From IMG/VR virus record IMGVR_UViG_3300029987_000009, positions 1 through 50,567 of that record: a stretch of DNA of 50,567 nucleotides; one strand, 5' to 3'. A program made the position numbers and the translations under genes. The stretch is from a virus. Below are positions 1-50,567 of the stretch, piece after piece. Within the stretch, counting starts at the first letter, position 1, and each line of letters begins with the position of its first letter. The notes under the pieces are model-generated. The model was given only the letters and a program-made list of their open reading frames with translations, was not told the origin of the DNA and searched no databases.

Positions 1-248
1 ACACAGTGATGGTTAGTGTTACGGGTGATGAAGACGCCCAAAAAGCAGAAATTGAATCAACAAAATTGTTTAGGTTTGCATTTACTGCTCAAGGGTGCAG
101 ATGTGAAGAAAATGAAGAGTGTGAAGACGATGGGTATTTGATTCATTATTATGTTTCAACTTTGCGAAGAGGTCACGACTGGTTGAGGTATGGTTATATT
201 GATGATCATGAGGAACTGTTTGGCATCCCACAAGGAGAAGACGAATGA
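1..248 (+). CDS. 3' part of the gene that spans the contig ends (partial)
   Basis: This is the C-terminal 81 or so codons of the protein that starts at 50026, repeated here because of the terminal overlap. The reading frame enters at base 3 and stops with TGA at 246-248. It is not a separate gene. The visible part contains a Cys- and Glu-rich stretch (C-R-C-E-E-N-E-E-C-E-D-D-G) and ends in an acidic tail. The stop overlaps the start of the next gene (ATG at 245), so the ligase operon continues unbroken through the contig junction. Function unknown; see the full-length copy. Confidence 0.85.
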   Translation, partial: TVMVSVTGDEDAQKAEIESTKLFRFAFTAQGCRCEENEECEDDGYLIHYYVSTLRRGHDWLRYGYIDDHEELFGIPQGEDE

Positions 249-250
249 AA
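1..250. repeat. Terminal direct repeat, left copy
   Basis: Bases 1-250 match 50318-50567 except for one position: C at 128 versus T at 50445. The mismatch is silent (both codons are Asp). The repeat lies inside a protein-coding gene. This means the contig closes on itself, either as a circularly permuted or circular assembly overlap, or as a true direct terminal repeat. A sequence difference between the copies favours an assembly overlap from a mixed population over a physical repeat, because replicated phage termini are normally identical. The unit genome is then about 50,317 bp. Confidence 0.95.
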
Positions 251-439
251 CGCATTTGTGTTGGTGATATTATTAGTAGTGGAAATTGCAAGCATGTTGT
301 TCGTGCTTGTAATCATACTTCAGTGGGTACAATTATTACTACTGATGATTGGCTTCAGTTTCAATTGGAGTCTGTTCAGTTGATTACTGAAGCAACTCCG
401 AATACTATTGAATTTCTCAAACTCTCAAAGGACTTTTAG
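245..439 (+). CDS. Small hypothetical protein in the ligase operon (64 aa)
   Basis: The ATG overlaps the stop of the upstream gene (ATGA), and the Shine-Dalgarno lies in its last codons (ggagaagacg). The stop is two bases before the next gene, so the three are almost certainly co-translated. The protein has a K-R-I-C-V-G-D start and a T-T-D-D-W-L-Q-F segment. It has no membrane segment and no motif I recognise. Its position between the unknown 179-aa protein and a COOH-NH2 ligase suggests an accessory role in the same pathway, but nothing in the sequence proves this. Confidence 0.7.
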   Translation: MKRICVGDIISSGNCKHVVRACNHTSVGTIITTDDWLQFQLESVQLITEATPNTIEFLKLSKDF

Positions 440-441
440 TC

Positions 442-1242
442 ATGGAAAAAAGCATTGTGTTGGTTGGTAGCGATCCCGAAGTTTTCATTCGTGATCTGAA
501 TACCAAGGAACCTCGTTCTATTATTGGCCGTCTTGGTGGCGATAAGTGGAACACCATGCCGATTTCGTCTGAAGGACATGGCGTATTGGAAGACAACTGC
601 TCTGCAGAATTCAACATCCCTCCGTCAGATAATGCAGAGGACTTCGTCAAGCATACTCGTTTCTGCATGGATTGGATTAATCAGAAGATGATCAAGGAAC
701 ACAACAGCGAGGTATTCAATGCTGCTTCTGTGATCTTCTCTGACGAGGAACTGGAAGACCCTGCTGCGTGGGTGTTTGGTTGTGAGCCTGATTACAATGC
801 CTATACTGGCAAGCAGAATCCCAAGCCGCATGCAGATGAGCCTAATCTTCGCTCTGCTGGCGGACATGTGCATATTGGATTCAAGAAGAATCCCACTAAG
901 CAAGCTGCACAAAAGGTTATCCGTGCTGCTGATATCTTCCTTGGTGTTCCCTCTGTGTTGTTGGATGATGATACCCGTCGTCGTGAGTTGTATGGCAAGC
1001 CCGGAGCCTTTCGTTATAAGTCTTATGGTGCTGAGTATCGTACCCTTAGTAACTTCTGGGTGTTTGATGATAATCTGATTAAGTGGGTGTTCAATCAGGT
1101 TCAAACACTGGTTGCCTACGCTCATAATAAGGCTGTGCCTGCTAACGATGAGTGTGCTGCCCGTATTCAGGAAGCAATCAACACAAACAATCGTCGTCTT
1201 GCTTCAGACATTATTCGTGACTTTAATATCGTAATGCCCTGA
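442..1242 (+). CDS. phiEco32-type COOH-NH2 ligase (amidoligase)
   Basis: The 266-aa protein has the marks of the phage COOH-NH2 ligase type 2 family, a branch of the glutamine synthetase / gamma-glutamylcysteine synthetase fold. These are an N-terminal G-S-D-P-E-V-F strand (residues 9-15), E-D-N-C-S-A-E-F-N (50-58), S-A-G-G-H-V-H-I-G-F (138-147), which supplies metal and nucleotide ligands, and G-A-E-Y-R-T-L-S-N-F-W (196-206). Such enzymes join a carboxylate to an amine using ATP. It sits with a second amidoligase, two glutamine amidotransferases and an ATP-grasp ligase. Iyer and Aravind predicted that clusters like this make or attach peptide-like modifications. The substrate is unknown. Family call is strong; reaction is inferred from family. 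Confidence 0.85.
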   Translation: MEKSIVLVGSDPEVFIRDLNTKEPRSIIGRLGGDKWNTMPISSEGHGVLEDNCSAEFNIPPSDNAEDFVKHTRFCMDWINQKMIKEHNSEVFNAASVIFSDEELEDPAAWVFGCEPDYNAYTGKQNPKPHADEPNLRSAGGHVHIGFKKNPTKQAAQKVIRAADIFLGVPSVLLDDDTRRRELYGKPGAFRYKSYGAEYRTLSNFWVFDDNLIKWVFNQVQTLVAYAHNKAVPANDECAARIQEAINTNNRRLASDIIRDFNIVMP

Positions 1243-1254
1243 TTGGAGAGAATG

Positions 1255-1902
1255 ATGCAATGGGATTTTGATCCGTGTGCTTTTGACAAAAAGTACTACC
1301 GGGATAAGTATGATGGAACAATCATCCTATTTAACGATGTGCCAATGTCCATTCAGATGCATGATGCTTCTTCTGTAATTGGAGAGGAAGCTTATAACTA
1401 CAGCACAAGTGGGGTTGAATTGGGTATTAAACCCTTCCTTCCTAATAGCCAGTGGTTTATGGATGATGTGCATTTGAAGACTCCTGTGTACATGCGTCGT
1501 GTTCCTCGCCGTCAATGGCATCGCTCCTTTCACAGGGAACAGTATGAGTTCAGCATTCCATATCTGCATGGATTTCGTCTTCGTAATAATATGCCGAACT
1601 TTGGTAGTCAAGTCTCCACAGCACGGGCAGTACATAACAACACTACAATGAAACTGGAAGAAGCAGTCAAACTTCTACGTAAGAATCGTAAGCATGGTGG
1701 TGAGGTTCTTACTAAGGATTTTGCATTGATTCGTAACAGTGAGACTGTTTATAGTCTGTGTAATTCTGTTGGTATTGTTGCTTTGGTATTGCCTGCAGAT
1801 AATGTTATTCTTGTGGGTCATAATCTGTATCAAGAGGTGTCAGATTATCTGGTTAATTCTGAGGAGGGAACATGGGCTTTGAAGCTGACGAAGTGTCTTT
1901 GA
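1255..1902 (+). CDS. Hypothetical protein between two amidoligases (215 aa)
   Basis: I placed the start at ATG 1255 because GGAGAG at 1246-1251 gives a good spacing; an in-frame ATG at 1252 and a TTG at 1243 are alternatives. The protein is soluble, rich in Tyr, His and Arg in the middle (Y-M-R-R-V-P-R-R-Q-W-H-R) and lacks any nucleotide-binding motif I can see. It overlaps the following amidoligase gene by 31 bases. The tight packing between two ligase genes suggests a partner or substrate-binding subunit. I do not recognise the family. Confidence 0.75.
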   Translation: MQWDFDPCAFDKKYYRDKYDGTIILFNDVPMSIQMHDASSVIGEEAYNYSTSGVELGIKPFLPNSQWFMDDVHLKTPVYMRRVPRRQWHRSFHREQYEFSIPYLHGFRLRNNMPNFGSQVSTARAVHNNTTMKLEEAVKLLRKNRKHGGEVLTKDFALIRNSETVYSLCNSVGIVALVLPADNVILVGHNLYQEVSDYLVNSEEGTWALKLTKCL

Positions 1903-2912
1903 ATCGTAAGTGGCATGAGATGATGAGTACATCACAGAATGTGACTCTTCCTACACATCCGGATGTCCCAGACACAAATCTGTTTGGGCTTAATCCAGCC
2001 AACACATTTGGGATTGAGGTTGAAGTTGAGAATGTTTTCCCAAGTATGTCTGAGGAAAAGCTTGCATCCTATTGTGCATCACTTGAGTCTCTTTCTGTTG
2101 ATGGATGGTGGCGCACAGATGAAGATGGAAGCCTCCGTAATAGTGGGCGTGAGTTTATTTCATACCCATTGAAGGGGAATGAAGTTGGGTATGGATTTCA
2201 ACGTTTGTTTTCTGTGCTGCATCCAAAGGCAGACTTTAATCTTCGTGCTGGTATTCATGTTCATGTGAACTGTCGTGATATGCGACTTGGACAGATCAGT
2301 AAAGCTATCCTTCTTGCAGTTGTCTTTGAGTCCATGATGTTTAGGATGACCGACCCATCAAGACACAACAACATCTTTTGTGTTCCAGTGACTGCTTCTG
2401 ATGGTATTTGGGACATGCTCAACTGGTTTGCCACAAACAAGGGACCGGCAGTACAAAAGTATAGTGCATTGAATGTTGTTCCGTTAACTGAACGGTCTTT
2501 TGGTACTGTTGAGTTTCGTCATCTGGAAACTACTAATGATATGCAGAAGTTGCAGCGTTGGCTTCAGGTGATTGATAGTATCTGGACATATGCACGTAAT
2601 CCAATTACATTTACAGACCTGCTTTCTCGGGTGTCGGCGCTTACAACCTCAAGTATGATCTTTAACTTTGGTGAAGATGTGTTTGCTGATGTTTGGAGTA
2701 GTGTTAAGAGCTATGCTGATCGACATGAAATTAACCATACCATTGCAAAAGTGAAGCAGATTGTGTACACAGATAGTAATGTGTTTTGTGGTGATGATAT
2801 GGCTTCTTGGTTGTCCAGTCATGCAAAGTTCCAGCAACACAATATTTCTTGTCTCTTCCAACATCTTAGTAAGACATCACTGGACACACCAGTAGAAAAC
2901 CCAGAGGACTAA
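1872..2912 (+). CDS. Amidoligase (GCS/GS-fold, amidoligase_2-like)
   Basis: The 346-aa protein starts at ATG 1872 behind a clear GGAGG. Family marks are F-G-I-E-V-E-V-E (46-53), the catalytic/metal strand of amidoligases; D-E-D-G-S-L-R with G-R-E-F-I-S-Y-P-L (83-100); A-G-I-H-V-H-V-N (126-133), with the paired His and Asn; and a late G-T-V-E-F-R-H-L-E segment supplying the phosphate-contacting Arg. Family members form amide bonds with ATP hydrolysis. This second, distinct amidoligase alongside the one at 442 suggests two consecutive ligations or a heteromeric enzyme. It ends in P-E-D, whose codons plus the stop (gaggactaa) form the Shine-Dalgarno of the next gene. Confidence 0.85.
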   Translation: MGFEADEVSLNRKWHEMMSTSQNVTLPTHPDVPDTNLFGLNPANTFGIEVEVENVFPSMSEEKLASYCASLESLSVDGWWRTDEDGSLRNSGREFISYPLKGNEVGYGFQRLFSVLHPKADFNLRAGIHVHVNCRDMRLGQISKAILLAVVFESMMFRMTDPSRHNNIFCVPVTASDGIWDMLNWFATNKGPAVQKYSALNVVPLTERSFGTVEFRHLETTNDMQKLQRWLQVIDSIWTYARNPITFTDLLSRVSALTTSSMIFNFGEDVFADVWSSVKSYADRHEINHTIAKVKQIVYTDSNVFCGDDMASWLSSHAKFQQHNISCLFQHLSKTSLDTPVENPED

Positions 2913-2915
2913 TTT

Positions 2916-4265
2916 ATGTGTGGTATTGTACTCACCTTCTCCACGGCTGTTGGTGGAATGTCAACAAAGAACCAGAAAGTCTTTGAAGACACACTGTTTA
3001 TGACTTCTTTGCGAGGAATGGATAGCACAGGAGTATTCACTTACGACAAGAATAAAGGTGACGAAGTTATGCTTGTTAAGGAAGCATATCCAAGTCCATT
3101 GTTCTTGCAGACTAAGGATTACGAGAAGCTGGAAAGTCATTTGTTTTATGATTGTCGTGCAGTTATTGGGCATTGTCGTGCAGCTACTCGTGGAACAGTC
3201 AAAGACGAAACAGCGCACCCATATCATCATGGTAGTATTATCTTGGTGCACAATGGCACATTACCAAGTCATCATGGAATAGCAACTAAAACATTTACTG
3301 TTGATTCTGAGGCGATTTGTCATGCACTTAGTGAACGGCCTTGGGAAGAGGTATTGCCAGAGATTCATGGTGCTTTTGTGTTGATCTGGTATGACTTGAT
3401 TCGTAAGGTACTGTGTATCGCATCCAATGGAGAGCGGCCTTTCTATACAGCAACCAGCAAGTCTGGTGATTTGTATGGAGCATCTGAGTATGGTATGCTT
3501 TCTGCTGCTATTGATCGTAACAAGGAAGACCTCATAAAGGATAAGGATGGTAGTTGTTTCTATGCTTTCCCAAAGAATACAGTACTAGAAATTCCTTATG
3601 ATTTTAAGGGGAAGTGGACTGATTTGGATTTCAAGCCATTCAAGGAAGCAACAAAGTCTTTTATGCAGGGTCATCCCAAGGTTACGCAGGGAAATACTGG
3701 GAATATTAAACAACTGACCCACTCCAAGAAAGAAGAAAAGCCTGTCACTGGAAAGAAGCCTACTGGATTTCGTAATGAAAGTGAGCTTACCAATCCACCA
3801 AGTAAAGTTTGGTTTGAGATTGAGAAGATCGAAGATGCAAGTACGAAGCATAATACACAGAGAATTTGGGGTCGTGGATTTCTTCCTGATAACACTGAGT
3901 ATATTACTTGCACACTCACAAGAAAGCAGGTTGATTTCAAAGAAGGGGATTTTATTGAGGCAAAGCCATACCTTGCATATACTCAGTGCAAAGATGATTA
4001 TATTTCTGAGCCGGGTAAATTGCATTTTATGGTAGACTTCAAGTCTTATTTACTTCTTGGAGATTGTGAAGATGAAGTTAATGACTTGGATGGCAACTCC
4101 GTTACAAAGGAGGAATGGATGCAACGTTCTGATCAAGACAGGCGTTGTTCTTATTGTAACGGTTTGTTGTCTTATTTTGATTTGCAGTATGCAGTCACCC
4201 ATCGTACCAACAGCCACATTGACACCGTGATTTGTGGCAATTGTATTGACGCATCTATTAACTAA
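2916..4265 (+). CDS. Class II glutamine amidotransferase with C-terminal zinc ribbon
   Basis: The protein begins M-C-G-I-V, so removal of Met exposes the N-terminal Cys nucleophile typical of Ntn-hydrolase glutamine amidotransferases. Further family marks are S-L-R-G-M-D-S-T-G (32-40), I-G-H-C-R-A-A-T-R-G (glutamine/loop contacts, about 84-93), V-H-N-G-T-L (about 111-116) and a later G-A-F-V-L-I-W-Y. It would release ammonia from glutamine and pass it to a partner ligase. After residue 220 comes a linker, a beta-rich module and a C-terminal C-x2-C...C-x2-C zinc ribbon (about 410-443), an uncommon addition for this family. At 449 aa it is longer than a bare GATase II domain. Confidence 0.88.
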   Translation: MCGIVLTFSTAVGGMSTKNQKVFEDTLFMTSLRGMDSTGVFTYDKNKGDEVMLVKEAYPSPLFLQTKDYEKLESHLFYDCRAVIGHCRAATRGTVKDETAHPYHHGSIILVHNGTLPSHHGIATKTFTVDSEAICHALSERPWEEVLPEIHGAFVLIWYDLIRKVLCIASNGERPFYTATSKSGDLYGASEYGMLSAAIDRNKEDLIKDKDGSCFYAFPKNTVLEIPYDFKGKWTDLDFKPFKEATKSFMQGHPKVTQGNTGNIKQLTHSKKEEKPVTGKKPTGFRNESELTNPPSKVWFEIEKIEDASTKHNTQRIWGRGFLPDNTEYITCTLTRKQVDFKEGDFIEAKPYLAYTQCKDDYISEPGKLHFMVDFKSYLLLGDCEDEVNDLDGNSVTKEEWMQRSDQDRRCSYCNGLLSYFDLQYAVTHRTNSHIDTVICGNCIDASIN

Positions 4266-4278
4266 GGAAACCACCACC

Positions 4279-5262
4279 ATGAATATTGTTATCCGTACCC
4301 AGAAGATTGGATCTATCTTTGCAACTGCACTCAAGAGTGCCCTTGAAGAGCTGGGCCATGATGTAATCCGATCCTCTAAGAATGGAAAGACTAAGCGTAA
4401 GATCTTTGACATGGATCAAAAAGCCATTGGAAAGATCAGCCAGTTTGTTGCTTTCCAGCAGGCTGGAGTTAGTACTGTTCCCAACACTATCAATAAGGCA
4501 GAGGCATTGTCTTGGGCAGCTGATGGTAGTACTGTTGTGTGCCGAACTCTTACCAATGCACACTCTGGAGAGGGCATTGTACTGGCAGAAACTCCAGATG
4601 CTGTTGTTGAAGCTCCACTTTATACTAAGTATATCCGGAAGTTTGCAGAGTTTCGTGTTCATATCTTCAAGAATGATATTATCTTCATTCAAAAGAAGAA
4701 AGCACAAGCTGCTGCAGTTGAGGCAGGAACTGTTAACTATCAGATTCGTAATCATCAGTATGGTTGGGTGTTCAGTCACAATGATCTTGATATTCCTGAC
4801 CAACCACAGTTGGAAAGTGTAGCAAAGCAAGCCGTTCGTGCAACTAAGTATCTATATGGTGCAGTTGATGTTATTTATAATAAGCGAGATAACAAATACT
4901 ATGTACTGGAAGTTAATAGTCGTCCGGGAATCGAAGGAGCAACTGCAATTCAGTATGCAAATGCTGTAGTTTCTTATCTGGAGTCTGGTGAGAAGTCTGT
5001 GGTTGCTGGTGCTATTGTAGAAATTAATCCTTGTAGTGCTTGGCTTGAACGTTGTATCAAGATGAATGTACCTGCTTATCAGATTACAGATACCATCTCT
5101 GTTGAACTGTTGCTTCGGGCCGTCGCATTCTGCTATGATAAGGGATGGCGTTCTACTGCAGAACGGGAACTGGGTGTATTCCATACCCAGTCAGAGGTGT
5201 TCAACCTGTACCCGGAAGTTGCAAACGAGCTTAACGAATTCCTTGCAGGAAAGGTTGCGTAA
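4279..5262 (+). CDS. ATP-grasp ligase (RimK/D-Ala ligase-like)
   Basis: The start is ATG 4279 behind AAGGAAA; an upstream in-frame start at 4234 would overlap the previous gene needlessly. The 327-aa protein shows the ATP-grasp layout: a pre-ATP-grasp N-terminal region, a glycine loop N-A-H-S-G-E-G-I-V-L (about 102-111), F-R-V-H-I-F (about 133-138), and the Mg/ATP site A-V-D-V-I-Y...Y-Y-V-L-E-V-N-S-R-P-G (about 196-218) with the acidic E-x-N signature. Such enzymes activate a carboxylate as acyl phosphate and join it to an amine or thiol. With the adjacent GATase and amidoligases it forms the core of the modification cluster. Substrate unknown. Confidence 0.9.
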   Translation: MNIVIRTQKIGSIFATALKSALEELGHDVIRSSKNGKTKRKIFDMDQKAIGKISQFVAFQQAGVSTVPNTINKAEALSWAADGSTVVCRTLTNAHSGEGIVLAETPDAVVEAPLYTKYIRKFAEFRVHIFKNDIIFIQKKKAQAAAVEAGTVNYQIRNHQYGWVFSHNDLDIPDQPQLESVAKQAVRATKYLYGAVDVIYNKRDNKYYVLEVNSRPGIEGATAIQYANAVVSYLESGEKSVVAGAIVEINPCSAWLERCIKMNVPAYQITDTISVELLLRAVAFCYDKGWRSTAERELGVFHTQSEVFNLYPEVANELNEFLAGKVA

Positions 5263-5991
5263 ATGGACTACAGCCAGATGGAGCTAAAGCTTGCGCCTGT
5301 CTCTGGTTATGATGAGATTGGACAGCAATCTAATGTCAAGTTTTCTATGGCTGTGGTTGAAGACAACTGCCTAAAGCAGTTGTTTTCTCCCATTAAGTGT
5401 CGTGATTTCTTGAATGAAGTGGTACGCAAGCAGTATCAGCCTGCGTTTTCAGAAAGGATCTATTCATTTCCAATCACTGCTGTTCCTGTATTTGATCATG
5501 CAAATCCTCCAATACTGTTGGCACATTTCTTCCCTAAACGAAAGCTAAAGAAGATTCAGGAACTATTCCCTGATGTTTATTTTAGTGAAGTTATTGAAGG
5601 TAATGTTCTGATCATTCCACTTCAGAATCTTGAATACATGTCAACATTTCTGATGTCTTACATCTCTCACATTATTCGTGTTGTTGAGCAGTATAATGAT
5701 GTGTTTGATATTTCTACTTGGACTAAGTATTCAAATGAGCAGGACTATGCCAAAAACCTTATAAAACTATGTCGTACTGAATATGCACATATCTTTAACT
5801 TCTTTGTGGACTGCAAAGATACTATTGCAAGGCACACAGGTGGTACTGGTATGGATGAAGTTGAGAGTATGAAGAATAGGACTACATACCACAATGGAGC
5901 AGGCATGCTTGGTGTTATGCGGTACAAGAATAACAAAGTCCGGCTGATGTTTGAAGATTGGTGGAATGATGCTTATGGGGAGGATGTATGA
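5263..5991 (+). CDS. Hypothetical protein following the ATP-grasp ligase (242 aa)
   Basis: The ATG directly abuts the stop of the ATP-grasp gene, implying translational coupling. The protein is soluble and alpha/beta in look, with V-P-V-F-D-H-A-N-P-P and a C-terminal H-T-G-G-T-G-M-D-E-V segment. I do not recognise a family. Its N-terminus D-Y-S-Q-M-E-L-K-L-A resembles DNA polymerase I motif A, but the rest shows no polymerase motif B or C. It is the last gene of the ligase cluster and is followed by overlapping small genes, so it may be the terminal pathway member or an unrelated accessory gene. Confidence 0.75.
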   Translation: MDYSQMELKLAPVSGYDEIGQQSNVKFSMAVVEDNCLKQLFSPIKCRDFLNEVVRKQYQPAFSERIYSFPITAVPVFDHANPPILLAHFFPKRKLKKIQELFPDVYFSEVIEGNVLIIPLQNLEYMSTFLMSYISHIIRVVEQYNDVFDISTWTKYSNEQDYAKNLIKLCRTEYAHIFNFFVDCKDTIARHTGGTGMDEVESMKNRTTYHNGAGMLGVMRYKNNKVRLMFEDWWNDAYGEDV

Positions 5992-6194
5992 GGTGTCGTG
6001 CCTGCAACAGAGAGTTGTCTGATTATGAATCTACACGTAAGAATCCAGACACAGGTGAGTATGAGGATATTTGTAATCAATGTCGTGCTGGTTATCTTCG
6101 GTGGGCAATATACTGCCCATATAATACAGATGATGTAGAGTTGATTAATACAGTAATGTATAAACCACGAACACAAACTAGGAGCACGGAATGA
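5988..6194 (+). CDS. Small zinc-finger-like protein (68 aa)
   Basis: The gene overlaps its neighbours at both ends by four bases (ATGA type). The protein starts M-R-C-R-A-C-N-R-E-L-S-D-Y-E-S-T-R and continues to D-I-C-N-Q-C-R, giving C-x2-C...C-x2-C, a compact zinc-binding knuckle. Proteins of this pattern are common in phage replication regions and are often annotated as zinc-finger proteins of unknown role. The C-terminal 30 residues have no feature I recognise. Confidence 0.75.
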   Translation: MRCRACNRELSDYESTRKNPDTGEYEDICNQCRAGYLRWAIYCPYNTDDVELINTVMYKPRTQTRSTE

Positions 6195-6561: not shown

Positions 6562-7263
6562 TTGAGTGAATTCATCGGACATGAGCCTTGTCCTATCTGC
6601 GGCTCTAGAGATAACCTAGCACGATATGATTCTGGTTCTGCTTTTTGCTTTGGTTGTCGTAGGTACTTTCCAACTACTATACAGAACAGGATTGCTGCTA
6701 AGAATAGTCCAGTTGAATCAGAAAAATCTATTGGACTTCCTAGTGATTATGATCCACAATACCATCCCAAGGAGGCTCTGGATTGGATCAGTCAGTATGG
6801 ATTCAATAGACAGCGGATGTTCAAGTATCGTATTGGTTGGTCTGAGTATAACAAACGATTAGTATTTCCTATCATTACACACAACAGACTACTTGCATGG
6901 CAAGGTCGGTCATTTACAGCAAAGCCTAAGTGGAAAACTCAAGGAGATATTCACAGCTTTCTGTGGCCGCTTAAATATAATAGTAATAAATTGGTGCTTG
7001 TAGAAGATATTATTTCTGCTTATAATGTCCATGAAGCTGGCTATGGTGTTGCTCCTTTGTTTGGATCACACATTACTAATGCACAACTCACTGGGATTTT
7101 AAAGAATCAATATAGTGAAGTTGTGTTTTGGCTTGATAGGGACAAATACAAAGAAGCCGTGCAGATGGCAGGGCAGATTGGTGAAGTTGGCATAAAGTCA
7201 AGCTTTATTGTAACAGATAAAGACCCAAAGGAATACAAAGACATTAAAGGAATTCTAAAATGA
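6562..7263 (+). CDS. DNA primase (T7 gp4 primase-half-like)
   Basis: The start is TTG 6562, fixed by GGAGGA at 6550-6556 in the end of the upstream gene; no ATG fits. The 233-aa protein has an N-terminal zinc finger C10-x2-C13...C29-x2-C32 for template recognition, then a TOPRIM-type core with K-L-V-L-V-E-D-I-I-S-A-Y (the acidic metal site, about 145-156) and V-V-F-W-L-D-R-D (about 190-197). It would make RNA primers for lagging-strand synthesis. Unlike T7 gp4, where primase and helicase are fused, the helicase here is a separate gene at 8279, with five small genes in between. Confidence 0.85.
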   Translation: MSEFIGHEPCPICGSRDNLARYDSGSAFCFGCRRYFPTTIQNRIAAKNSPVESEKSIGLPSDYDPQYHPKEALDWISQYGFNRQRMFKYRIGWSEYNKRLVFPIITHNRLLAWQGRSFTAKPKWKTQGDIHSFLWPLKYNSNKLVLVEDIISAYNVHEAGYGVAPLFGSHITNAQLTGILKNQYSEVVFWLDRDKYKEAVQMAGQIGEVGIKSSFIVTDKDPKEYKDIKGILK

Positions 7264-11767: not shown

Positions 11768-11971
11768 ATGCGAAGACCCGTGAAATGGAGGTATCTAGAA
11801 AAAAGGTTAAATAAAAAGCCATATAGTTATCGGTACCTTGCACTTCGTTCTGGCCCATACCTTAAATTTAATGGAGTGGATAGGAGAATCTTGAATTCTT
11901 CATACTGTGTGATCTTTCCTTCAATGCGATTTGAAGAATTCCTCCTGAAGAATATGAGGGAATTATTTTGA
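11768..11971 (+). CDS. Small basic hypothetical protein (67 aa)
   Basis: ATG 11768 abuts the preceding stop. The N-terminal half is strongly basic (R-R-P-V-K-W-R-Y-L-E-K-R-L-N-K-K-P), which would fit nucleic-acid contact. The end R-F-E-E-F-L-L-K-N-M-R-E-L-F is helical. It overlaps the TTG start of the polymerase N-terminal gene by four bases. Function unknown; position suggests a replication accessory. Confidence 0.65.
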   Translation: MRRPVKWRYLEKRLNKKPYSYRYLALRSGPYLKFNGVDRRILNSSYCVIFPSMRFEEFLLKNMRELF

Positions 11972-13137
11972 AATGGTTGATCTTCGACTGTGAAACAACA
12001 ACACATATGAAGGGGAATCCATTCAGTAAGTACAACAGAGCAGTTGTCTTTGGATTTAAATCGGACAGTATTGGAACTGTGCTTATCTGGGAGGATGAAT
12101 CTAATGTGGTTGAACGTATACAGAAGATCATTGACGACCATGATATTATTGTTGGTGCAAATATCAAGTTCGATATTCACTGGTTGATTAGGTATGGTAT
12201 TAAGTTTAACAATAATAAGTTGTGGGATGTTTTGATCTATCGGTATCGTGAACTGTACCAAGCTAAACGGTTTATCTCACTTAACGATTGCTGTGAGGCT
12301 TATGGTATTCCTACTAAACTAGATGTAGTAAAAGAAGTATATTGGAAAAATGGAATTGACACTGATGCAATCCCTCGGGACATTCTTGGTGAGTATCTGG
12401 TTCGTGACTTGGATTGCACAGGAGCAGTCCTTGATGTCCAGCGAAAAGTGCGGCCTAGTTGGTTTACTTGCTTTAGACTTGATTGTGTTGACCTCTGGTC
12501 ATTAATTGAGATGGAGCAGAATGGTGCTCCTGTTAATGTTAAGGGAGTACTAAATGAGCTTGAAGTACAGAAGGGCCGTAGGGTTGAGCTTTACATGGAA
12601 ATCATGGATGCAATTAGTCCTGATTACGATATTAACCTTGGTAGTTCTGATGAGCTTTCCGTTGCTTTGTTTGGTGGTGTCATTTACGAAAAGTATAAAC
12701 TACCTATTGGTGAGTATAAGTCTGGTGCCAAGATCGGGCAGACCAGATATAAATGGTTTGTAAATGAACATGCATATGAAGGGCAATATACACCGGTAGA
12801 GGGTTCTGAGGTAGATAAGGTTGCTAAGGATGAGGAAGGAAACACAATCTTTAAATATTACTCTACATCTGAAGACAACCTAAAAAAAGTAAAGTGCACA
12901 AAGAAACGTAGGAAAGTACTTGACAATATCATTGAAGTAGGTAAGGTTGATAAGTTGATTCAATCATACCTCAACAAGATTCCTGCAATGATTGAAGAGT
13001 ATGGCTGGGAACATGATACACTCCATCCTAATTTCAATTCAACTATTACCATTACAGGGAGATTGAGTTCAGATAAACCCAACTTTCAGAATTTACATCC
13101 AACCTTTCAGAAGTATGTGGAGACTCGCTATAAATGA
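11968..13137 (+). CDS. DNA polymerase family A, N-terminal part (3'-5' exonuclease plus thumb)
   Basis: Start is TTG 11968 with gaggg upstream. The 389-aa protein has all three exonuclease motifs: ExoI D7-C-E9-T-T, ExoII N-I-K-F-D69 and ExoIII Y143-x3-D147. The C-terminal end contains T-I-T-G-R-L-S-S-D-K-P-N-F-Q-N-L, the T-G-R-L-S-S...N-L-Q-N motif that in Pol I lies just before palm motif A. The chain then stops, and the rest of the polymerase is encoded by the overlapping gene at 13134. It provides proofreading and primer-template grip. LUZ24/PaP3-like phages also have a polymerase split in two, so this is unlikely to be a sequencing error. Confidence 0.9.
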   Translation: MKWLIFDCETTTHMKGNPFSKYNRAVVFGFKSDSIGTVLIWEDESNVVERIQKIIDDHDIIVGANIKFDIHWLIRYGIKFNNNKLWDVLIYRYRELYQAKRFISLNDCCEAYGIPTKLDVVKEVYWKNGIDTDAIPRDILGEYLVRDLDCTGAVLDVQRKVRPSWFTCFRLDCVDLWSLIEMEQNGAPVNVKGVLNELEVQKGRRVELYMEIMDAISPDYDINLGSSDELSVALFGGVIYEKYKLPIGEYKSGAKIGQTRYKWFVNEHAYEGQYTPVEGSEVDKVAKDEEGNTIFKYYSTSEDNLKKVKCTKKRRKVLDNIIEVGKVDKLIQSYLNKIPAMIEEYGWEHDTLHPNFNSTITITGRLSSDKPNFQNLHPTFQKYVETRYK

Positions 13138-13847
13138 TTATCTCTGTAGATGCAAAGGCACTAGATTGGTTGGTAGGTATTTATTTATCCCAAGATAAGA
13201 TAGGAATGCAGGAATGGAATGAAGGTATAGATCAACATACAATGAATCAGGAAGCCTTTGTACTTCCTTCTAGGTTGATTGCTAAGAAGTTCCTTTTCCG
13301 TGCTATTTTCTTGGGGTCTGCCTATGCATATGCAAATGATCCTGAGTTTATGCACGTATCCTCAACCCAGAGATATTGGGAAGCAGTTATAGAAAGATTC
13401 TATGATAAGTATTCAGGCTTTGGAGAGTGGGTAGAAGCTACACTGAAGGAAGTGATCCTAAATAAAGGACACTACACAGGAATCCATGGAGCACAATGGT
13501 ACTATCAGCCTGTGGAGAAGCGAGGGGAGAGTGTATGGCCTAAGACACAGATCGCTAATTTCCCAATCCAATCCTTGGAGAGTGAGATTATGAAGTTGTA
13601 TAGGATTGCAGTCCTTAGGCGGTTAAAGCGGGAATTTCCTGAAGCCAAGCTTTTTTCTTCTGTGCATGACTCACTTTGTATTGACACTCCTGAGGAGTTC
13701 CTGTACAATATAAAGTATATGCTGGACGAAGAGGCCAAGAAGATTCCAGCTTTACTCAAGCAATATTACAACATTGATTTCAACATTGAGTTCAGAGTGG
13801 AATCTTGTTATGGTATGAACTATTATGATTTGGTGGAATTTAAATGA
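13134..13847 (+). CDS. DNA polymerase family A, C-terminal part (palm and fingers)
   Basis: ATG 13134 overlaps the stop of part 1 (ATGA), giving coupled 1:1 synthesis. The 237-aa chain starts exactly at motif A: S-V-D6-A-K-A-L-D11-W, where D6 is the first catalytic Asp and D11 stands where most family A enzymes have Glu. Motif B is R47-x3-K51-x3-F55-x3-F59-x-G. Motif C is S-V-H-D-S-L. The two parts should assemble into one replicase. F59 takes the place of the usual Tyr of motif B. The gene ends by overlapping the next small gene. Confidence 0.9.
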   Translation: MIISVDAKALDWLVGIYLSQDKIGMQEWNEGIDQHTMNQEAFVLPSRLIAKKFLFRAIFLGSAYAYANDPEFMHVSSTQRYWEAVIERFYDKYSGFGEWVEATLKEVILNKGHYTGIHGAQWYYQPVEKRGESVWPKTQIANFPIQSLESEIMKLYRIAVLRRLKREFPEAKLFSSVHDSLCIDTPEEFLYNIKYMLDEEAKKIPALLKQYYNIDFNIEFRVESCYGMNYYDLVEFK

Positions 13848-20123: not shown

Positions 20124-23100
20124 TTATTCAGCGTTTGCTGCATTAAGTTTATTGAATGCCTCTACTTGTTCCTTTGCTCGAATCAAAGCACGAGTCTGCT
20201 TAAGATTACGATTAAGGTTCTGGAAAGCTGAGTTAGACTGGAATGCATTCTGTCCTACAGATTGAATTCTCTTCTGTATTTCAGCAGAATCACCCCCAAG
20301 CTCCATGTACTTCTGATACAAATCCTGCAATTTACTCTTACCATCATAACTAGTTCCCAATCTATTGTTTACTACCATAGCTGGAATCTCGGTGTTTAGT
20401 TCAGAGAGAATTGAATTTCTTGCATCAGTCCTAGCCTTCTCTTGCTGACTAAGTCCATAAGACAAGTCACGTTCCTGTGCTTCCCTGAGTGGAGTAACGC
20501 CAGTCAGTTTACGTAGTAGCTGCTCTCTTGGAGTACGCTCAACAGTCTTTACGTTGGTGCCTGCATCATTCATCTGCTGGAATTCAAAGTTACCTTTTGC
20601 ATTGGTATGTCCAATGTTCTCTTCAAGGGCTCCCTTGATGTAGGGCAGATTAGGCGCAAGCCGTGCAGCCTGATTAGTAGTTCTAAGCCTATCGTCCTTC
20701 CCTTCTCGGAACTGGTTAATCACACCGGGAACCGCTCCAGTCAAATTCCTTGCTACAGAACCAACAGCACTGTACAACGGCCAAACATAGCTAGAAAAAT
20801 CCCCGCCCGGACTACCCGTTTGAAATGAACCAGAGAAGTCAAGTCCAGTGGTATCAGAGAACAGTCCCTTAGAAATACTAGGAGGCAGTTGTCCCATAAT
20901 CATCTTGGAATTAGGTGCATTAAGGATAGCAGGATCTTTTGAATTCTTGCCCCACATATCCTTCAAAGTATCATAGATACCCGCCATGTAGTTCAATCCG
21001 GGAATCGCCATAATACCACCAAGACCAAGCATCATTCCTATCTTAACCATAAAGGCAGCTTTTGCACCCGGCTGATTCATGAACTTTGCATCACCATATA
21101 GCTTAGTAAGCTCATTGAACATAAAGGTACGCAGGTTACCAGCACCCTCACCCAGCACACCAGCCTTCTTCAACCAACGCGGCTGATTAGCTTTAAGTGA
21201 GGAATTCATCATAACTTCTGACATATGCTTAGCATACTCAAATGCCCGAGCTTCAGGAACACCAGATTCAATGAATGCTCTAGACACCGCAGTAAAAAAG
21301 TAAGAACGACCAACCAAGTCAGGAGTACGTGTAATCACATTAGCAAGTGAATTAACTGCTTCACTTCCATAACTCCCACTATGTGATACATTAAGATCGG
21401 CTGCATAAGTATCTGCAATGCCATTATCTTTCATGTACTGCCACATACGTTGTCCTAGTGTGTCCCCAGCCATTCGTGGGTTATCAATACCCATCTTATG
21501 ATTCCAACCCTCTTTACCCATACGAGCTGTATTTGCTGCTGCATCTCCGATAGCCATAACTAGTGGTTTTATCAACATCAACTTACCCTGCACACCTAGC
21601 TTAGTATAAGCCATACGGGCAGCTGCTAAGCGGGTATTAACTTCTGCTGCATTCTGCACACCTTGAATGCCCTGCACAATTGCTGTGCTGGTATTAGATA
21701 GTACCTTAGCAGTTAGCCACTTCTTCATATCTCTGGCGAAATTAGTGACCGACCTAGAATTAATTGCTGGATTACCAACATATTTATTCAAGTCAACTTT
21801 CTCAGAAATATACCTACCAAGACTATCCAGAGTTTCGTTAGTAACTACACCATAGTGACTGTCGTAATACTCCTGTAGTACTTCTGGCAGATTAACTTTT
21901 CCTTGTGCTAAGAAGTCTTGTTTAAGGGCACTCAGTTGTCTACTGGCCTTCTGTGCTTCTGTGAACAGGTGACCACCCTGTAACTGACTAGTAAGGGAAT
22001 CAATAGCCCTTGTAGCCTGTTCTTTAGGATTAAGCCAAGGCTCATCACCTGCCCATCCACGAACACCCATACGGGCCTGTGTGTGCCCTTGATAGTTATA
22101 TGCATCCTTCCAAGCATTCTGCACATCCTTCATACCTAACTTATCCAGTATTGCCTGATCCCCAGCAGTAATTGCTAAGTCAGTTTTGTACTGTTCTAGT
22201 AGACTTTGTGTTCCAGTCTTTTCACCAGTAAACCCACGAGTGCGTGGAGCAGGTTCTGTCATAGTTACAGAATGCGACTTAGAGTCAAATCCATATTCTT
22301 CTGGGTGCTGTGTGATGTACTTGTATGCTTGATTAAAAGTTCTTATATTATCTCCAGAAATACGAACAGGCATAGATACATGCTTGCCATCTTTATCTGT
22401 TAATGTTACAAGAGATTCATACTTGCCCTTCCAAGATCTACCAAAGTACTTACCATTATCCATATTAGGCAAATCCTTTGGTACAGCAATACCATCGTCA
22501 ATCTGTTTCTGTTTGTAGGCGTCATTAACTCTATCGTACAGCTTATCCATCTCAGCACTGATCGAGTCCATGTAAGCCTTAACACGCGGAGAACTTCCCT
22601 CTTCTCCCCTAATATACTGCATGATACCATCACGAGCAGTATTAATCCCATCAAACCACTTAAGACTATTGAACTTGGTAGAGATGTTTCTTTCCGCCAT
22701 TTCAGCAGCCAACTTCGCCTTCCTCCCTCCAGTTTCAATCATTTTAGAACCCCAGACATATGCAGGATTATCTTGCATGACCCTACGCATAGCTGCACCT
22801 TGGGTAAGTACATTCCTACGACCAACCATCTTGGGAATATCAGAAGACTTAGAGATGTCCTTCTGTACATCAGTATACACATCAGATACATTATCACGAG
22901 CATAACCAAATGCCTGTTGGAATCCTTTTGAATCCTCTAGAGGAGTTACAGTAGCAACCTTATTAGCAGGTTCTACAGAAGGAGATGCCGCATTCATGAT
23001 CTGTGCATTTGCAGCCTGAGCTTCAGGAAATAATTCAGGAAGACTTGACTTGTAGTAGTTCAAATCAGAAGGAAACTGTACAGCATTATTTTCTGCGTAG

Positions 23101-24290
23101 TCTTCAACCTGCTTCTGTATTGGACTAGGCTCACTAAACTTAAACTGTGAGTTTTCAGGAGGGGTGTCTACCAATACCTGTGGAGTATTCCTCCAGTTTC
23201 CTTTACTACCAATAGTAGGAAGAGCATTGTTAGGGTTGTCTTCTCCAAACCAAGGCTGATTAGGGCTGAGAGGCTCTGCAGGAATTGCATCACGTCGAGC
23301 AAAAGGCGCCCTATTAGCAGAGGAGTATATGCTTGTACGATATTCCATTGGATCATATGGAGCAATCTCAGGAGACACAACTGGAATATCTGGTAGTGGG
23401 GCTTCCTGTGTAAGATTGGTTAGTGTATTCTCAACAGGTACAGGAGGATTTTCAGGTCCAATATTTGCATCAGTAGGCTGATCAAATAGCTTTGGTCCTT
23501 GTGCTTCATACCGAGCCTGATCAGCTATCTGTGCTTGTGCTGCTTGGTCCTGTGCAGCCTTAGCTGCTGCTTGCTGTAAAGCTACATCCTGTTGTGTCTT
23601 CAGGGTGGCATCTGCAGAAGTCCTACGGGCCTCAGCAATATTAGCAACAGGTTTGGCCACACCCTCTAATGCCATCCCACCTGCCATTGCAAGTTGTACT
23701 GCATTACTGATGTCAGTACCAAACTGCTGGTCTCCTGTAGCAAGTTTAGCCATTTCACCGTAGCCCGCCCCCGTCCCTTCTAGGGCAGCTCCAGTAGCCG
23801 CCATGGGAGAGCCATACATCTGCAGTAAAGGATCATTAGTGGAGTCAAATGGAGTAAACTTTTGCATACGCTTCTGCATAGCTTCTAGCCCAATTTTACC
23901 CCCATCCTCTCCATGAAGGCTGGCATTAACACCCTTAACTGCACCTTCAATACCACCAATAATCCCGCCCGGAATCTGTGCCGCTGCATTGATGGGGGCT
24001 TTTAGTTGTGCTATTGCTGGATGCAGTAATGCAGAGAGTCTATCTGTTACCGGTGCTTTTGAATCCAGTACAGTAGCTCTATCCTTTGCTATCTGTGTGT
24101 TTACATCCTTATACCATTTACCAATACTATCAGTAACACCTCCTAACCAAGAGTCAGGAGATTTCTGTACAGTAGGAGCAGCCCCTCCTGAAAACTGATC
24201 CGGGGAGGTTACAGATAGCTTACTGTAATCGTCAGGAGACGGAACAGATAGCTTGGAAAAGTCATCAGGAGAGGTTACGTTGATTGCCAT
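20124..24290 (-). CDS. Large internal virion / DNA-ejection protein (1388 aa)
   Basis: The start is ATG 24290 behind aaggaataaac. The N-terminus carries three imperfect copies of a S-P-D-x-[FY]-S-K-L-S-V unit (about residues 6-34). The body is long, helical, and rich in Ala, Gln, Asn and Asp. Around 1110-1160 there is a hydrophobic region (M-V-K-I-G-M-M-L-G-L-G-G-I-M-A-I-P-G-L) that could enter the host membrane. Length, position as last gene of the late block and composition match internal core proteins ejected with DNA (T7 gp16 / DarB-like). I see no lytic transglycosylase motif. Confidence 0.72.
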   Translation of the reverse strand: MAINVTSPDDFSKLSVPSPDDYSKLSVTSPDQFSGGAAPTVQKSPDSWLGGVTDSIGKWYKDVNTQIAKDRATVLDSKAPVTDRLSALLHPAIAQLKAPINAAAQIPGGIIGGIEGAVKGVNASLHGEDGGKIGLEAMQKRMQKFTPFDSTNDPLLQMYGSPMAATGAALEGTGAGYGEMAKLATGDQQFGTDISNAVQLAMAGGMALEGVAKPVANIAEARRTSADATLKTQQDVALQQAAAKAAQDQAAQAQIADQARYEAQGPKLFDQPTDANIGPENPPVPVENTLTNLTQEAPLPDIPVVSPEIAPYDPMEYRTSIYSSANRAPFARRDAIPAEPLSPNQPWFGEDNPNNALPTIGSKGNWRNTPQVLVDTPPENSQFKFSEPSPIQKQVEDYAENNAVQFPSDLNYYKSSLPELFPEAQAANAQIMNAASPSVEPANKVATVTPLEDSKGFQQAFGYARDNVSDVYTDVQKDISKSSDIPKMVGRRNVLTQGAAMRRVMQDNPAYVWGSKMIETGGRKAKLAAEMAERNISTKFNSLKWFDGINTARDGIMQYIRGEEGSSPRVKAYMDSISAEMDKLYDRVNDAYKQKQIDDGIAVPKDLPNMDNGKYFGRSWKGKYESLVTLTDKDGKHVSMPVRISGDNIRTFNQAYKYITQHPEEYGFDSKSHSVTMTEPAPRTRGFTGEKTGTQSLLEQYKTDLAITAGDQAILDKLGMKDVQNAWKDAYNYQGHTQARMGVRGWAGDEPWLNPKEQATRAIDSLTSQLQGGHLFTEAQKASRQLSALKQDFLAQGKVNLPEVLQEYYDSHYGVVTNETLDSLGRYISEKVDLNKYVGNPAINSRSVTNFARDMKKWLTAKVLSNTSTAIVQGIQGVQNAAEVNTRLAAARMAYTKLGVQGKLMLIKPLVMAIGDAAANTARMGKEGWNHKMGIDNPRMAGDTLGQRMWQYMKDNGIADTYAADLNVSHSGSYGSEAVNSLANVITRTPDLVGRSYFFTAVSRAFIESGVPEARAFEYAKHMSEVMMNSSLKANQPRWLKKAGVLGEGAGNLRTFMFNELTKLYGDAKFMNQPGAKAAFMVKIGMMLGLGGIMAIPGLNYMAGIYDTLKDMWGKNSKDPAILNAPNSKMIMGQLPPSISKGLFSDTTGLDFSGSFQTGSPGGDFSSYVWPLYSAVGSVARNLTGAVPGVINQFREGKDDRLRTTNQAARLAPNLPYIKGALEENIGHTNAKGNFEFQQMNDAGTNVKTVERTPREQLLRKLTGVTPLREAQERDLSYGLSQQEKARTDARNSILSELNTEIPAMVVNNRLGTSYDGKSKLQDLYQKYMELGGDSAEIQKRIQSVGQNAFQSNSAFQNLNRNLKQTRALIRAKEQVEAFNKLNAANAE

Positions 24291-47977: not shown

Positions 47978-48211
47978 ATGTGGCCGTTCAAACAGAAACA
48001 AACAGAAAAGAAAAAAATCAACACGCACATTTGTGTAGATTGCATTCATTGTAAATTTTCATATCCTGCTTCTACATTTATCTGTCAAACCACAGTAAAA
48101 TGGGGGGATGTTAATCCTGTTACTGGAGATAGACCACTACTAAGCATGGCAACATGTGAATCACTGCGAAAAGCTTCTCCTATAACTTGTATCCACTATA
48201 TAAAGGAATGA
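47978..48211 (+). CDS. Cysteine-rich small protein (77 aa)
   Basis: ATG 47978 has aaaggagtatagct upstream. After M-W-P-F-K-Q-K-Q-T-E-K-K-K it has C-V-D-C-I-H-C, then C-Q-T, C-E-S and C-I-H, six Cys in all with His. This spacing suggests a zinc site or a disulfide knot. No signal peptide. Function unknown. Confidence 0.68.
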   Translation: MWPFKQKQTEKKKINTHICVDCIHCKFSYPASTFICQTTVKWGDVNPVTGDRPLLSMATCESLRKASPITCIHYIKE

Positions 48212-48213
48212 GT

Positions 48214-48600
48214 ATGACTGATGTTACTTTGATCCCAATTATTGGGGCTTATTGTAGTCAAGTATACATTACAGAAAATAAAGAAGAATTTTATTTGTTC
48301 TTTAGGATGATTGGAGAAAGCCAAAACAAACTGCTTAAGTTCTACCATGAACAAGAGTGTTGTGAGCAGGTGTTTATTGAAGATGTTTGTGGTGACATTA
48401 AAGATCTTATGTATAGTCCTATAACACAAGCAGAAGTTGTGTCAGAACAAAAAGATGCGCGCCTTGGTGACTCACAGACATGGACTTTCTACAAATTTGC
48501 TACTGCAAAGGGTAGTGTGACTCTTCGTTGGTTGGGAGAATCCAATGGCTACTACAGTGAGCGAGTTGATCAGAAAATCTACGAACTGATTCCTACTTGA
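48214..48600 (+). CDS. DUF7448-like protein (128 aa)
   Basis: I chose ATG 48214 (M-T-D-V-T-L-I-P), which has AAAGGA at 48202-48207 at good spacing; ATG 48208 is possible. The core F-Y-H-E-Q-E-C-C-E-Q-V-F-I-E-D-V-C-G-D-I-K-D-L matches the H-x-x-x-C-C-E-x-V-x-I-E-D-I-x-G-D-x-x-D-L pattern of this small phage family. The rest is beta-rich. The role is not known. The stop TGA is within the promoter TTGACA. Confidence 0.75.
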   Translation: MTDVTLIPIIGAYCSQVYITENKEEFYLFFRMIGESQNKLLKFYHEQECCEQVFIEDVCGDIKDLMYSPITQAEVVSEQKDARLGDSQTWTFYKFATAKGSVTLRWLGESNGYYSERVDQKIYELIPT

Positions 48601-49060: not shown

Positions 49061-49464
49061 TGGCAATTGCACTGAAGATTACCAATGGTGGTGAAACGGT
49101 TGAGCCACTAGAGAAGCGGACTGCTGTTGTATATAGTGGTGGTAGTAGTTATTATCCGGGAAGTTCCCTTACAAAAGCAGACTATGAACGAGCAATTACA
49201 TTTGCTGTTAATGCTGATCTGCACATTGGTAAGAAATTTAAGATCAGGAATTATCCCAACACAACAGCAGAGATTATCGAGATTATTCCTTACACAGACA
49301 ATCGTGTATATCTTACGTTTCAACAGATATATGACAGTGAACCTAACTGGAGGAAGGTGTCATTTATTCGTGTAATGCGAAGTTCATTTACTGGTAGTCC
49401 ATACCCATCCACCATCGCCTTGTGTGAGATTGATAATACTGAGGAAATCATTCATGAATGTTAA
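49060..49464 (+). CDS. Hypothetical protein upstream of the class I amidotransferase (134 aa)
   Basis: ATG 49060 overlaps the previous stop (TAATG). The protein is beta-rich (L-K-I-T-N-G-G-E-T-V-E-P; F-K-I-R-N-Y-P-N-T-T-A-E-I-I-E-I-I-P), with a Ser/Gly/Tyr loop (Y-S-G-G-S-S-Y-Y-P-G-S-S). No catalytic motif is evident. It overlaps the amidotransferase gene by 11 bases, so it may belong to the ligase pathway. Confidence 0.68.
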   Translation: MAIALKITNGGETVEPLEKRTAVVYSGGSSYYPGSSLTKADYERAITFAVNADLHIGKKFKIRNYPNTTAEIIEIIPYTDNRVYLTFQQIYDSEPNWRKVSFIRVMRSSFTGSPYPSTIALCEIDNTEEIIHEC

Positions 49465-50026
49465 GTCTGTGCTGTATAACAACTTCGCCCATTGGGATGA
49501 GCGGTATCCAGATTGGAAGAGGTCGGTCATTCACCGTGATTCACACATTGATGATATCACAGCAGATGATGTGCTGATTCTGCATGGAGGCACTGATATT
49601 AATCCTTGGCTGTATGGAGAACTTCCGGAAGGTCATACAGATTTCCCAGATAGGGAACGAGATGAATTTGAAGTACGTGCAATCAAACAGGCATTAAAGG
49701 TTGGGGCAAAATTGTTTGGTATTTGCAGGGGAGCACAGCTGCTAACCGCTTTGAATGGTGGTAAGTTGATCCAGCATATTGAAGGGCATCATAGCACGCA
49801 CAAGCTGGATGAATTTGCAGGCATTGCTACTAGTAGTTGCCACCATCAGGCAATGATTCCATCTGAAACCGCACAGGTCATCGCTACACATGACGGCATT
49901 CCTGAGATTGTGTATTATGCGCCAACAAACAGTTATTGTGTGCAGGGGCATCCTGAATGGATGAGTAGCAGCCATCCTTTTGTGGAGCTTAATTTCAAAC
50001 TTTGCAGGGAATTGTGGGGTATCTGA
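49454..50026 (+). CDS. Class I glutamine amidotransferase (peptidase C26-like, 190 aa)
   Basis: The start is ATG 49454 behind gaggaaatc, inside the end of the previous gene; a longer frame from 49424 is less likely. The catalytic triad is complete: nucleophile in F-G-I-C91-R-G-A-Q-L-L, and H166 with E168 in V-Q-G-H-P-E-W. L-I-L-H-G-G-T-D-I-N-P forms the oxyanion strand. The gamma-glutamyl hydrolase/GATase1 family removes or transfers glutamine-derived ammonia or cleaves gamma-glutamyl bonds. It opens the ligase cluster that continues past the contig junction. Confidence 0.9.
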   Translation: MNVKSVLYNNFAHWDERYPDWKRSVIHRDSHIDDITADDVLILHGGTDINPWLYGELPEGHTDFPDRERDEFEVRAIKQALKVGAKLFGICRGAQLLTALNGGKLIQHIEGHHSTHKLDEFAGIATSSCHHQAMIPSETAQVIATHDGIPEIVYYAPTNSYCVQGHPEWMSSSHPFVELNFKLCRELWGI

Positions 50027-50565
50027 TGACAGACACACATAAGACTTTCTATGATGCAGAGTACACATTCAACTGGCTCAAAGGAAAAAAGATAAAGCTG
50101 ATTCACAATGAATACAAAGTAGAAAAATATAAGACTGGGAGGGGAGATGGTGAGTGGTATCTTGATGCTATGGAAGGGTATAATAAGGATATTAAAATAA
50201 ATTACTGCACAATCCTAACAGGAACCTGCTCTGCAGTGCAGATACACCGCCATGGTGAATACTGGTCTAAAGAAAAACTTGAAGATACTGTGTATTTCTT
50301 TGCTCAGTTGGGCATTAACACAGTGATGGTTAGTGTTACGGGTGATGAAGACGCCCAAAAAGCAGAAATTGAATCAACAAAATTGTTTAGGTTTGCATTT
50401 ACTGCTCAAGGGTGCAGATGTGAAGAAAATGAAGAGTGTGAAGATGATGGGTATTTGATTCATTATTATGTTTCAACTTTGCGAAGAGGTCACGACTGGT
50501 TGAGGTATGGTTATATTGATGATCATGAGGAACTGTTTGGCATCCCACAAGGAGAAGACGAATGA
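50026..50565 (+). CDS. Unknown protein of the ligase cluster (179 aa)
   Basis: ATG 50026 overlaps the amidotransferase stop (TGATG). The chain reads F-Y-D-A-E-Y-T-F-N-W-L-K-G-K-K-I, a central Y-F-F-A-Q-L-G-I-N-T-V-M-V-S-V, a Cys/acid cluster C-R-C-E-E-N-E-E-C-E-D-D, and an acidic end. It could be a small acetyltransferase-like or binding domain, as such clusters sometimes include, but I see no acetyl-CoA signature. Its C-terminal part is repeated at 1-248 because of the contig overlap. Confidence 0.72.
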   Translation: MTDTHKTFYDAEYTFNWLKGKKIKLIHNEYKVEKYKTGRGDGEWYLDAMEGYNKDIKINYCTILTGTCSAVQIHRHGEYWSKEKLEDTVYFFAQLGINTVMVSVTGDEDAQKAEIESTKLFRFAFTAQGCRCEENEECEDDGYLIHYYVSTLRRGHDWLRYGYIDDHEELFGIPQGEDE

Positions 50566-50567
50566 AA
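50318..50567. repeat. Terminal direct repeat, right copy
   Basis: Matches bases 1-250 with one silent difference (T at 50445). It lies within the coding sequence of the 179-aa protein and includes the first bases of the next gene. It indicates a closed or terminally redundant molecule. Confidence 0.95.

Follow-up and report, generated by a model that had tools for sequence, protein, structure and literature searches.

A phage cassette of two amidoligases, an ATP-grasp ligase and glutamine amidotransferases across the ends of a virus record, and its candidate γ-glutamyl pathway

Introduction

What does a phage make with two amidoligases, an ATP-grasp ligase and glutamine amidotransferase (GATase) genes set side by side ahead of its replication genes? 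A cassette of two amidoligases, an ATP-grasp enzyme, a GATase and a cyclotransferase has been reported in phiEco32, 7-11, PA11, tf, MR299-2, LUZ24, PaP3, CW02 and RIO-1 (PMC5498523). That paper, which cites Iyer and Hardies 2013, calls it a 'peptidoglycan modification cassette' made up of a γ-glutamyl amidoligase, a cyclotransferase and an ATP-grasp enzyme. According to the same paper, the cassette was first predicted by Iyer et al. in 2009. Peptidoglycan modification directed against superinfection is a published proposal without experimental proof (PMC5498523, PMC10580990), and our literature search found no published gene-specific functional test of the cassette. A relative of its first ligase is present in 313 of 50,697 deposited phage records (~0.6%). 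Here we describe a cassette of this type whose genes run across the two ends of a virus record, and ask which of its components are constant, which chemistry they would most reasonably support and on what substrate.

Results

The window, meaning the whole stretch of DNA analysed, is the IMG/VR virus record IMGVR_UViG_3300029987_000009 of 50,567 bp, in which the following genes bear on the question.

49454-50026, plus strand: GAT1, class I amidotransferase fold, Peptidase_C26/PuuD-like, probable γ-glutamyl hydrolase (Pfam, PDB, NCBIfam)
50026-50565, plus strand: u179, accessory ORF of the variable slot between GAT1 and LIG1 (without Pfam or PHROG match)
245-439, plus strand: u64, 64-aa ORF of the same variable slot (without Pfam or PHROG match)
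442-1242, plus strand: LIG1, COOH-NH2 ligase (PF14395, phrog_3815)
1255-1902, plus strand: u215, unannotated, between LIG1 and LIG2 (profile)
1872-2912, plus strand: LIG2, Amidoligase_2 (PF12224)
2916-4265, plus strand: GAT2, class II (Ntn) glutamine amidotransferase domain with a C-terminal extension ending in a zinc ribbon (GATase_6)
4279-5262, plus strand: ATP-grasp ligase, RimK/α-L-glutamate-ligase-like (RimK Pfam)
5263-5991, plus strand: u242, conserved protein (profile)
5988-6194, plus strand: u68, small protein with an N-terminal Cys-x-x-Cys zinc-ribbon-like motif (profile, weak zinc-ribbon matches)
6562-7263, plus strand: DNA primase, next in the same operon (phrog_47, 6.3e-32)

These genes form one operon in the order GAT1-u179-u64-LIG1-u215-LIG2-GAT2-ATP-grasp-u242-u68, followed by two small ORFs and the primase. 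Bases 1-250 of the record repeat 50318-50567 with one mismatch, which looks like population variation, and collapsing this 250-bp overlap, which falls within the u179 gene, closes the record to a circle of ~50,317 bp. Because the break falls inside a gene, the record is probably a circular permutation whose end is an arbitrary assembly break and not a phage terminus, and because of the repeat no gene is truncated at the junction; the whole of u179 lies at 50026-50565, and after the collapse the following ORF shares the bases ATGA with it. The amidotransferase/amidoligase/ATP-grasp cluster that the original prediction had placed across this junction is borne out, its ORFs lying at the coordinates above and five enzymes (GAT1, LIG1, LIG2, GAT2 and the ATP-grasp ligase) passing Pfam gathering or curated cut-offs with concurring PHROG families. 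From GAT1 to the primase the intergenic gaps range from -31 to +13 nt, being 0 nt directly before the primase, in keeping with the earlier statement that all genes overlap or abut, and most operon genes carry a purine-rich stretch directly 5′ of the start codon. COOH-NH2 ligase, Amidoligase_2, class II GATase and RimK-like ATP-grasp genes therefore stand adjacent in one operon, as in the phiEco32/RIO-1-type cassette, with abutting ORFs leading into a replication-gene neighbourhood.

Three further features of the window were recorded. A DUF7448 protein (5e-22) is encoded at 48187-48600, just upstream of the cassette, and a 1388-aa protein with zero Pfam matches, probably structural, at 20124-24290 on the minus strand. 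Two ORFs (11968-13137 and 13134-13847) overlapping by ATGA together encode the family A DNA polymerase; N-terminal polymerase homologues in three related loci (L088, L025 and L017) likewise end at ~370-390 aa, which suggests that the split is genuine and not a sequencing frameshift.

A profile scan yielded 80 IMG/VR loci, and HMMs of the cassette genes were mapped over 92 loci. LIG1, LIG2, GAT2 and the ATP-grasp gene occur together in 67 of the 67 loci with sufficient flank, a set that includes some near-duplicates and close relatives and in which, all loci having been collected via LIG1, only the presence of the other three enzymes is evidence. The genes follow a few fixed orders. The window type reads GAT1-LIG1-u215-LIG2-GAT2-ATP-grasp-(u242), the PaP3, LUZ24 and phiEco32 type LIG1-u215-like-LIG2-GAT2-ATP-grasp-GGCT (GGCT being γ-glutamyl cyclotransferase), and a third arrangement GGCT-ATP-grasp-GAT1-LIG1-GAT2-LIG2. 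The proposed kinship with the phiEco32 and LUZ24/PaP3 clusters holds, these having the same LIG1-u215-LIG2-GAT2-ATP-grasp order ahead of the primase.

By terminase and cassette together the nearest named relative is Alcaligenes phage vB_Af_QDWS535 (OK172329), which has the same GAT1-LIG1-u215-LIG2-GAT2-ATP-grasp order and a terminase large subunit 52% identical over 76%, but differs in an extra cyclotransferase upstream and in lacking u242. The window terminase is nearest to those of QDWS535 and of a Manatee Spring phage, and the cassette is like that of Pseudomonas phage O4 (NC_031274, Zobellviridae, Paundecimvirus), in which GATase I, LIG1, a u215-like gene, LIG2, GAT2 and ATP-grasp share one operon near the primase, with GAT2 placed before LIG1 and without u242, unlike the window. 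The same annotations as in O4 are given for the Pa11virus group in the TC6 paper (PMC6209634). Carriers of the cassette also include the E. coli laboratory-collection phages Bas87, Bas89, Bas91 and Bas92 and therapeutic Pseudomonas phages. Bacterial genomes gave one hit (L088, JAGWIG010000036.1), a contig of a metagenome-assembled genome (MAG) with a whole window-type cassette; this contig is probably of phage origin and was placed in a Pseudomonadota MAG by binning. Two loci carry a further Amidoligase_2 gene, placed several kb ahead of the cassette (L044 at 2881, L040 at 435), and Proteus phage Privateer encodes a ribose-phosphate pyrophosphokinase and a nicotinamide phosphoribosyltransferase, an NAD-rebuilding pair, at 2180-4902, ~10 kb upstream of its cassette.

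The mapping sorts the smaller ORFs into core and accessory. We regard u215, from its position and profile matches, as a putative near-constant fifth component between LIG1 and LIG2. It was detected in 47 loci by a profile with a motif around RxPxRQxxRG and is visible by profile only, tblastn against the phage records returning zero matches; its positional equivalents in Bruynoghevirus, Kuravirus and Grimontviridae match weakly, and no copy was located in the third arrangement, which has GAT2 between the two ligases. u242 is confined to window-type cassettes (29 hits by profile, with two tandem diverged copies in L031, L076 and L081), and u68 is a conserved downstream neighbour in 41 loci. Structural models of u215 (pLDDT 78) and u242 (pLDDT 72.5) gave no PDB fold match at E < 0.001. 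The 179-aa and 64-aa ORFs, listed in the original prediction beside the five enzymes, were rejected as core components: they have no homologue among the 92 related loci and are ORFans of the GAT1-LIG1 slot, which is variable or absent (63 loci), being empty in many relatives and filled by unrelated ORFs in others. For the proteins that precede LIG1 in other phages, among them PaP3, phiEco32, O4 and Privateer, Pfam gave no significant match.

Judged by their conserved residues, the core enzymes are intact. In LIG1, D51, E56, R137, H142, H144, E198 and R200 are kept in 99-100% of 89 homologues, and in LIG2, which scores 26.8 bits against Amidoligase_2 (cut-off 22), E49, E51, D85, S87, E94, H129, H131, E214 and R216 are kept in 99-100% of 86. 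The motifs E-x-E, H-x-H-V and G-x-x-E-x-R of E. coli YbdK (glutamate-cysteine ligase 2) recur in the same order in LIG2 and partly in LIG1, pairwise profile scores with YbdK being weak beyond the motifs, and no solved structure matched LIG1 or LIG2 by sequence. Their glutamate-cysteine ligase (GCS)-type fold is thus predicted from the Pfam assignment and three motifs in YbdK order. The ATP-grasp ligase scores 22.8 bits against RimK (cut-off 21), has profile matches to RimK, α-L-glutamate ligases, cyanophycin synthase and Ddl, and keeps K52, E124, R126, K140, D197, E211 and N213 in 100% of 87 homologues; it stays far below the RimK α-L-glutamate ligase equivalog (NCBIfam rimK_fam, 19.1 vs 143.4 bits). 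GAT2 (GATase_6, 5.9e-14) carries the class II GATase active site, with Cys2, R88, N113, G114 and D130 in 93-99% of 87 homologues, and its zinc-ribbon cysteines 411, 414, 440 and 443 are invariant in seven aligned members. Some records name it glutamine-fructose-6-phosphate aminotransferase, an identity with GlmS that we reject, since GlmS also has two isomerase domains and the match is limited to the GATase part (29.9 vs 418 bits, NCBIfam). Loss of catalytic residues in most relatives, named at the outset as an observation that would speak against the cluster, was not seen, the residues being essentially invariant across 69-89 homologues.

GAT1 had been counted with GAT2 as one of two ammonia donors, a view that its relatives weaken. 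Its Pfam match to Peptidase_C26 (3.1e-20) ranks ahead of GATase (3.4e-9), its PDB matches are Lin1909 and PuuD, and its NCBIfam matches are PuuD (4.7e-8) and γ-glutamyl-CDP-amidate hydrolase (7.9e-8), both under the curated cut-off (32.8 vs 266 bits for the PuuD equivalog, γ-glutamyl-GABA hydrolase, and 32.6 vs 250 bits). The Cys-His-Glu triad of class I GATases and Peptidase C26, here C91, H166 and E168, is present in 100% of 69 homologues. When 50 whole cassette records were searched with PF06094 (GGCT) and PF07722 (C26), 48 encoded one or the other (C26 only in 26, GGCT only in 12, both in 10); the two with neither are a record that starts inside GAT1 at the contig start (L030) and a 22-kb fragment (L067). 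As background, the PaP3 cyclotransferase matches 218 and GAT1 60 of the 50,697 phage records by tblastn, which is less sensitive than profiles. No GGCT was found in the window genome, where the C26 enzyme at 49454 is the sole detected γ-glutamyl-cleaving candidate. GAT1 as a strict replacement of GGCT was rejected, as both are present in 10 of the 50 records.

GAT1 is more likely a γ-glutamyl-cleaving enzyme than an ammonia donor, because it is closest to γ-glutamyl hydrolases and because relatives without GAT1 carry a γ-glutamyl cyclotransferase. C26-like class I enzymes include glutaminase-type amidotransferases too, and GAT1 could still be a glutaminase. Since the GGCT and C26 families both act on γ-glutamyl bonds, family membership suggests that a γ-glutamyl bond is first made and then cleaved. 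In many loci the GAT1 and LIG1 genes are directly adjoining or overlapping.

Discussion

We propose that the cassette encodes a cytosolic pathway of the phage in which a γ-glutamyl-type amide or isopeptide would be made at the expense of glutamine and ATP and its γ-glutamyl group then removed or exchanged, most likely on an envelope precursor, and we give this reading as a whole a probability of about 0.5. The γ-glutamyl-type pathway taken on its own is somewhat more likely than not, and a peptidoglycan or envelope precursor as the target is a tentative assignment. Gene content, synteny, conserved catalytic residues and a near-universal γ-glutamyl-cleaving family are the observations that the model has to fit; each reaction, the order of the reactions and the target are what we infer from them. 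GAT2 would hydrolyse glutamine to ammonia (and glutamate), LIG1 and LIG2 as GCS-type ligases, with u215 as their partner, would activate carboxylates and form γ-glutamyl amides, the RimK-like ATP-grasp ligase would add an amino acid, and GAT1, or γ-glutamyl cyclotransferase in other phages, would cleave the γ-glutamyl bond. The multistep, ATP- and glutamine-dependent amide or peptide synthesis of the original prediction is supported as an interpretation.

A simple hydrophobicity scan found no transmembrane-like segment or signal peptide in the cassette proteins, so the substrate should be cytosolic, be it an envelope precursor, a protein or a metabolite. Of these we would place first an envelope precursor such as the peptidoglycan stem peptide, which may be altered early in infection to the benefit of the phage, for example against superinfection. 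Nothing in the present evidence points to peptidoglycan more than to a protein, a nucleotide or a free metabolite. Several other readings were weighed.

The closeness of the ATP-grasp ligase to RimK and α-L-glutamate ligases, the cytosolic nature of the proteins and the early-type operon position ahead of the replication genes would all suit ligases that tag proteins of the host or the phage with glutamate or a short peptide in a RimK- or Pup-like manner, with GAT1 or GGCT reversing the tag, and Burroughs et al. have argued that host proteins may be substrates of phage ATP-grasp peptide ligases (PMC4431377). A RimK-type tag, however, needs fewer parts than two more ligases and a glutamine amidotransferase, the ATP-grasp ligase falls far under the RimK equivalog cut-offs and the variable slot holds no conserved acceptor gene, and we consider protein tagging unlikely.

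We hold it to be no likelier that the product is a diffusible small molecule, such as a modified amino acid, a γ-glutamyl-polyamine or an antimetabolite, which interferes with the host by inhibiting one of its pathways or by blocking a defence signal. The architecture would resemble secondary-metabolite logic if γ-glutamyl were a carrier or a protecting group that C26 or GGCT takes off, and bacterial genomes all but lack the cassette (one hit), but the cassette has no constant exporter or tailoring enzyme, and PADLOC gave only two weak, chance-level and thus unusable matches. Another reading has ligation followed by deprotection yield a new small molecule or conjugate with γ-glutamyl protection, u215 being an essential subunit so far overlooked, and has this product directed not at peptidoglycan but at a host function or defence; it seems to us quite unlikely.

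The same genes in the planctomycete phage ZRK32 have been proposed to be nitrogen-metabolism auxiliary genes that aid host ammonia assimilation and amino-acid synthesis, yet the evidence there is growth with phage added and is not gene-specific (PMC10945688). Bacterial hosts generally possess their own ammonia-assimilation enzymes, this role would poorly explain a fixed multi-ligase cassette in lytic phages, and we consider it improbable. Envelope, virion and DNA had all been named as possible targets, and hypermodification of phage DNA bases is the least probable of the readings considered: the cassette is co-operonic with the primase and near replication genes, but the window proteins scanned include no hydroxymethyl-pyrimidine synthase, base kinase or 7-deazaguanine gene and ThyX as the only thymidylate enzyme, so that DNA modification is unsupported by the genome parts examined.

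Returning to the γ-glutamyl pathway, four fixed enzymes joined by a near-constant γ-glutamyl-cleaving enzyme yield a specific and testable prediction, namely γ-glutamyl amides. The product, if proven, would amount either to a new metabolite of phage origin or to a new means by which phages change the cell envelope. An evolved Bruynoghevirus, FJK, acquired missense mutations in its amidoligase and GATase genes after both 15 and 30 biofilm training rounds, at different positions in the same genes (PMC11450229), which indicates that these genes respond to selection and does not itself show their function.

The window cassette is a new member of an already described type. Like those of RIO-1, phiEco32, LUZ24, PaP3, PA11, tf and CW02, it combines four core enzymes with a γ-glutamyl-cleaving enzyme beside replication genes, and unlike the RIO-1/phiEco32 type it has GAT1 (C26) in a genome without cyclotransferase, together with u242, u68 and two ORFan insertions. 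To this type we add the near-universal C26/GGCT pairing, the identification of u215, a division of the ORFs into core and accessory, and residue-level conservation. Two schemes offer a parallel. In the PuuA/PuuD pathway putrescine is γ-glutamylated and the γ-glutamyl group is later removed, PuuD being a C26 enzyme, and in butirosin synthesis a γ-glutamyl group serves as protection and the deprotecting enzyme is a cyclotransferase. In both, as proposed for the cassette, a γ-glutamyl group is put on and later taken off, an analogy in the way of working and in nothing further.
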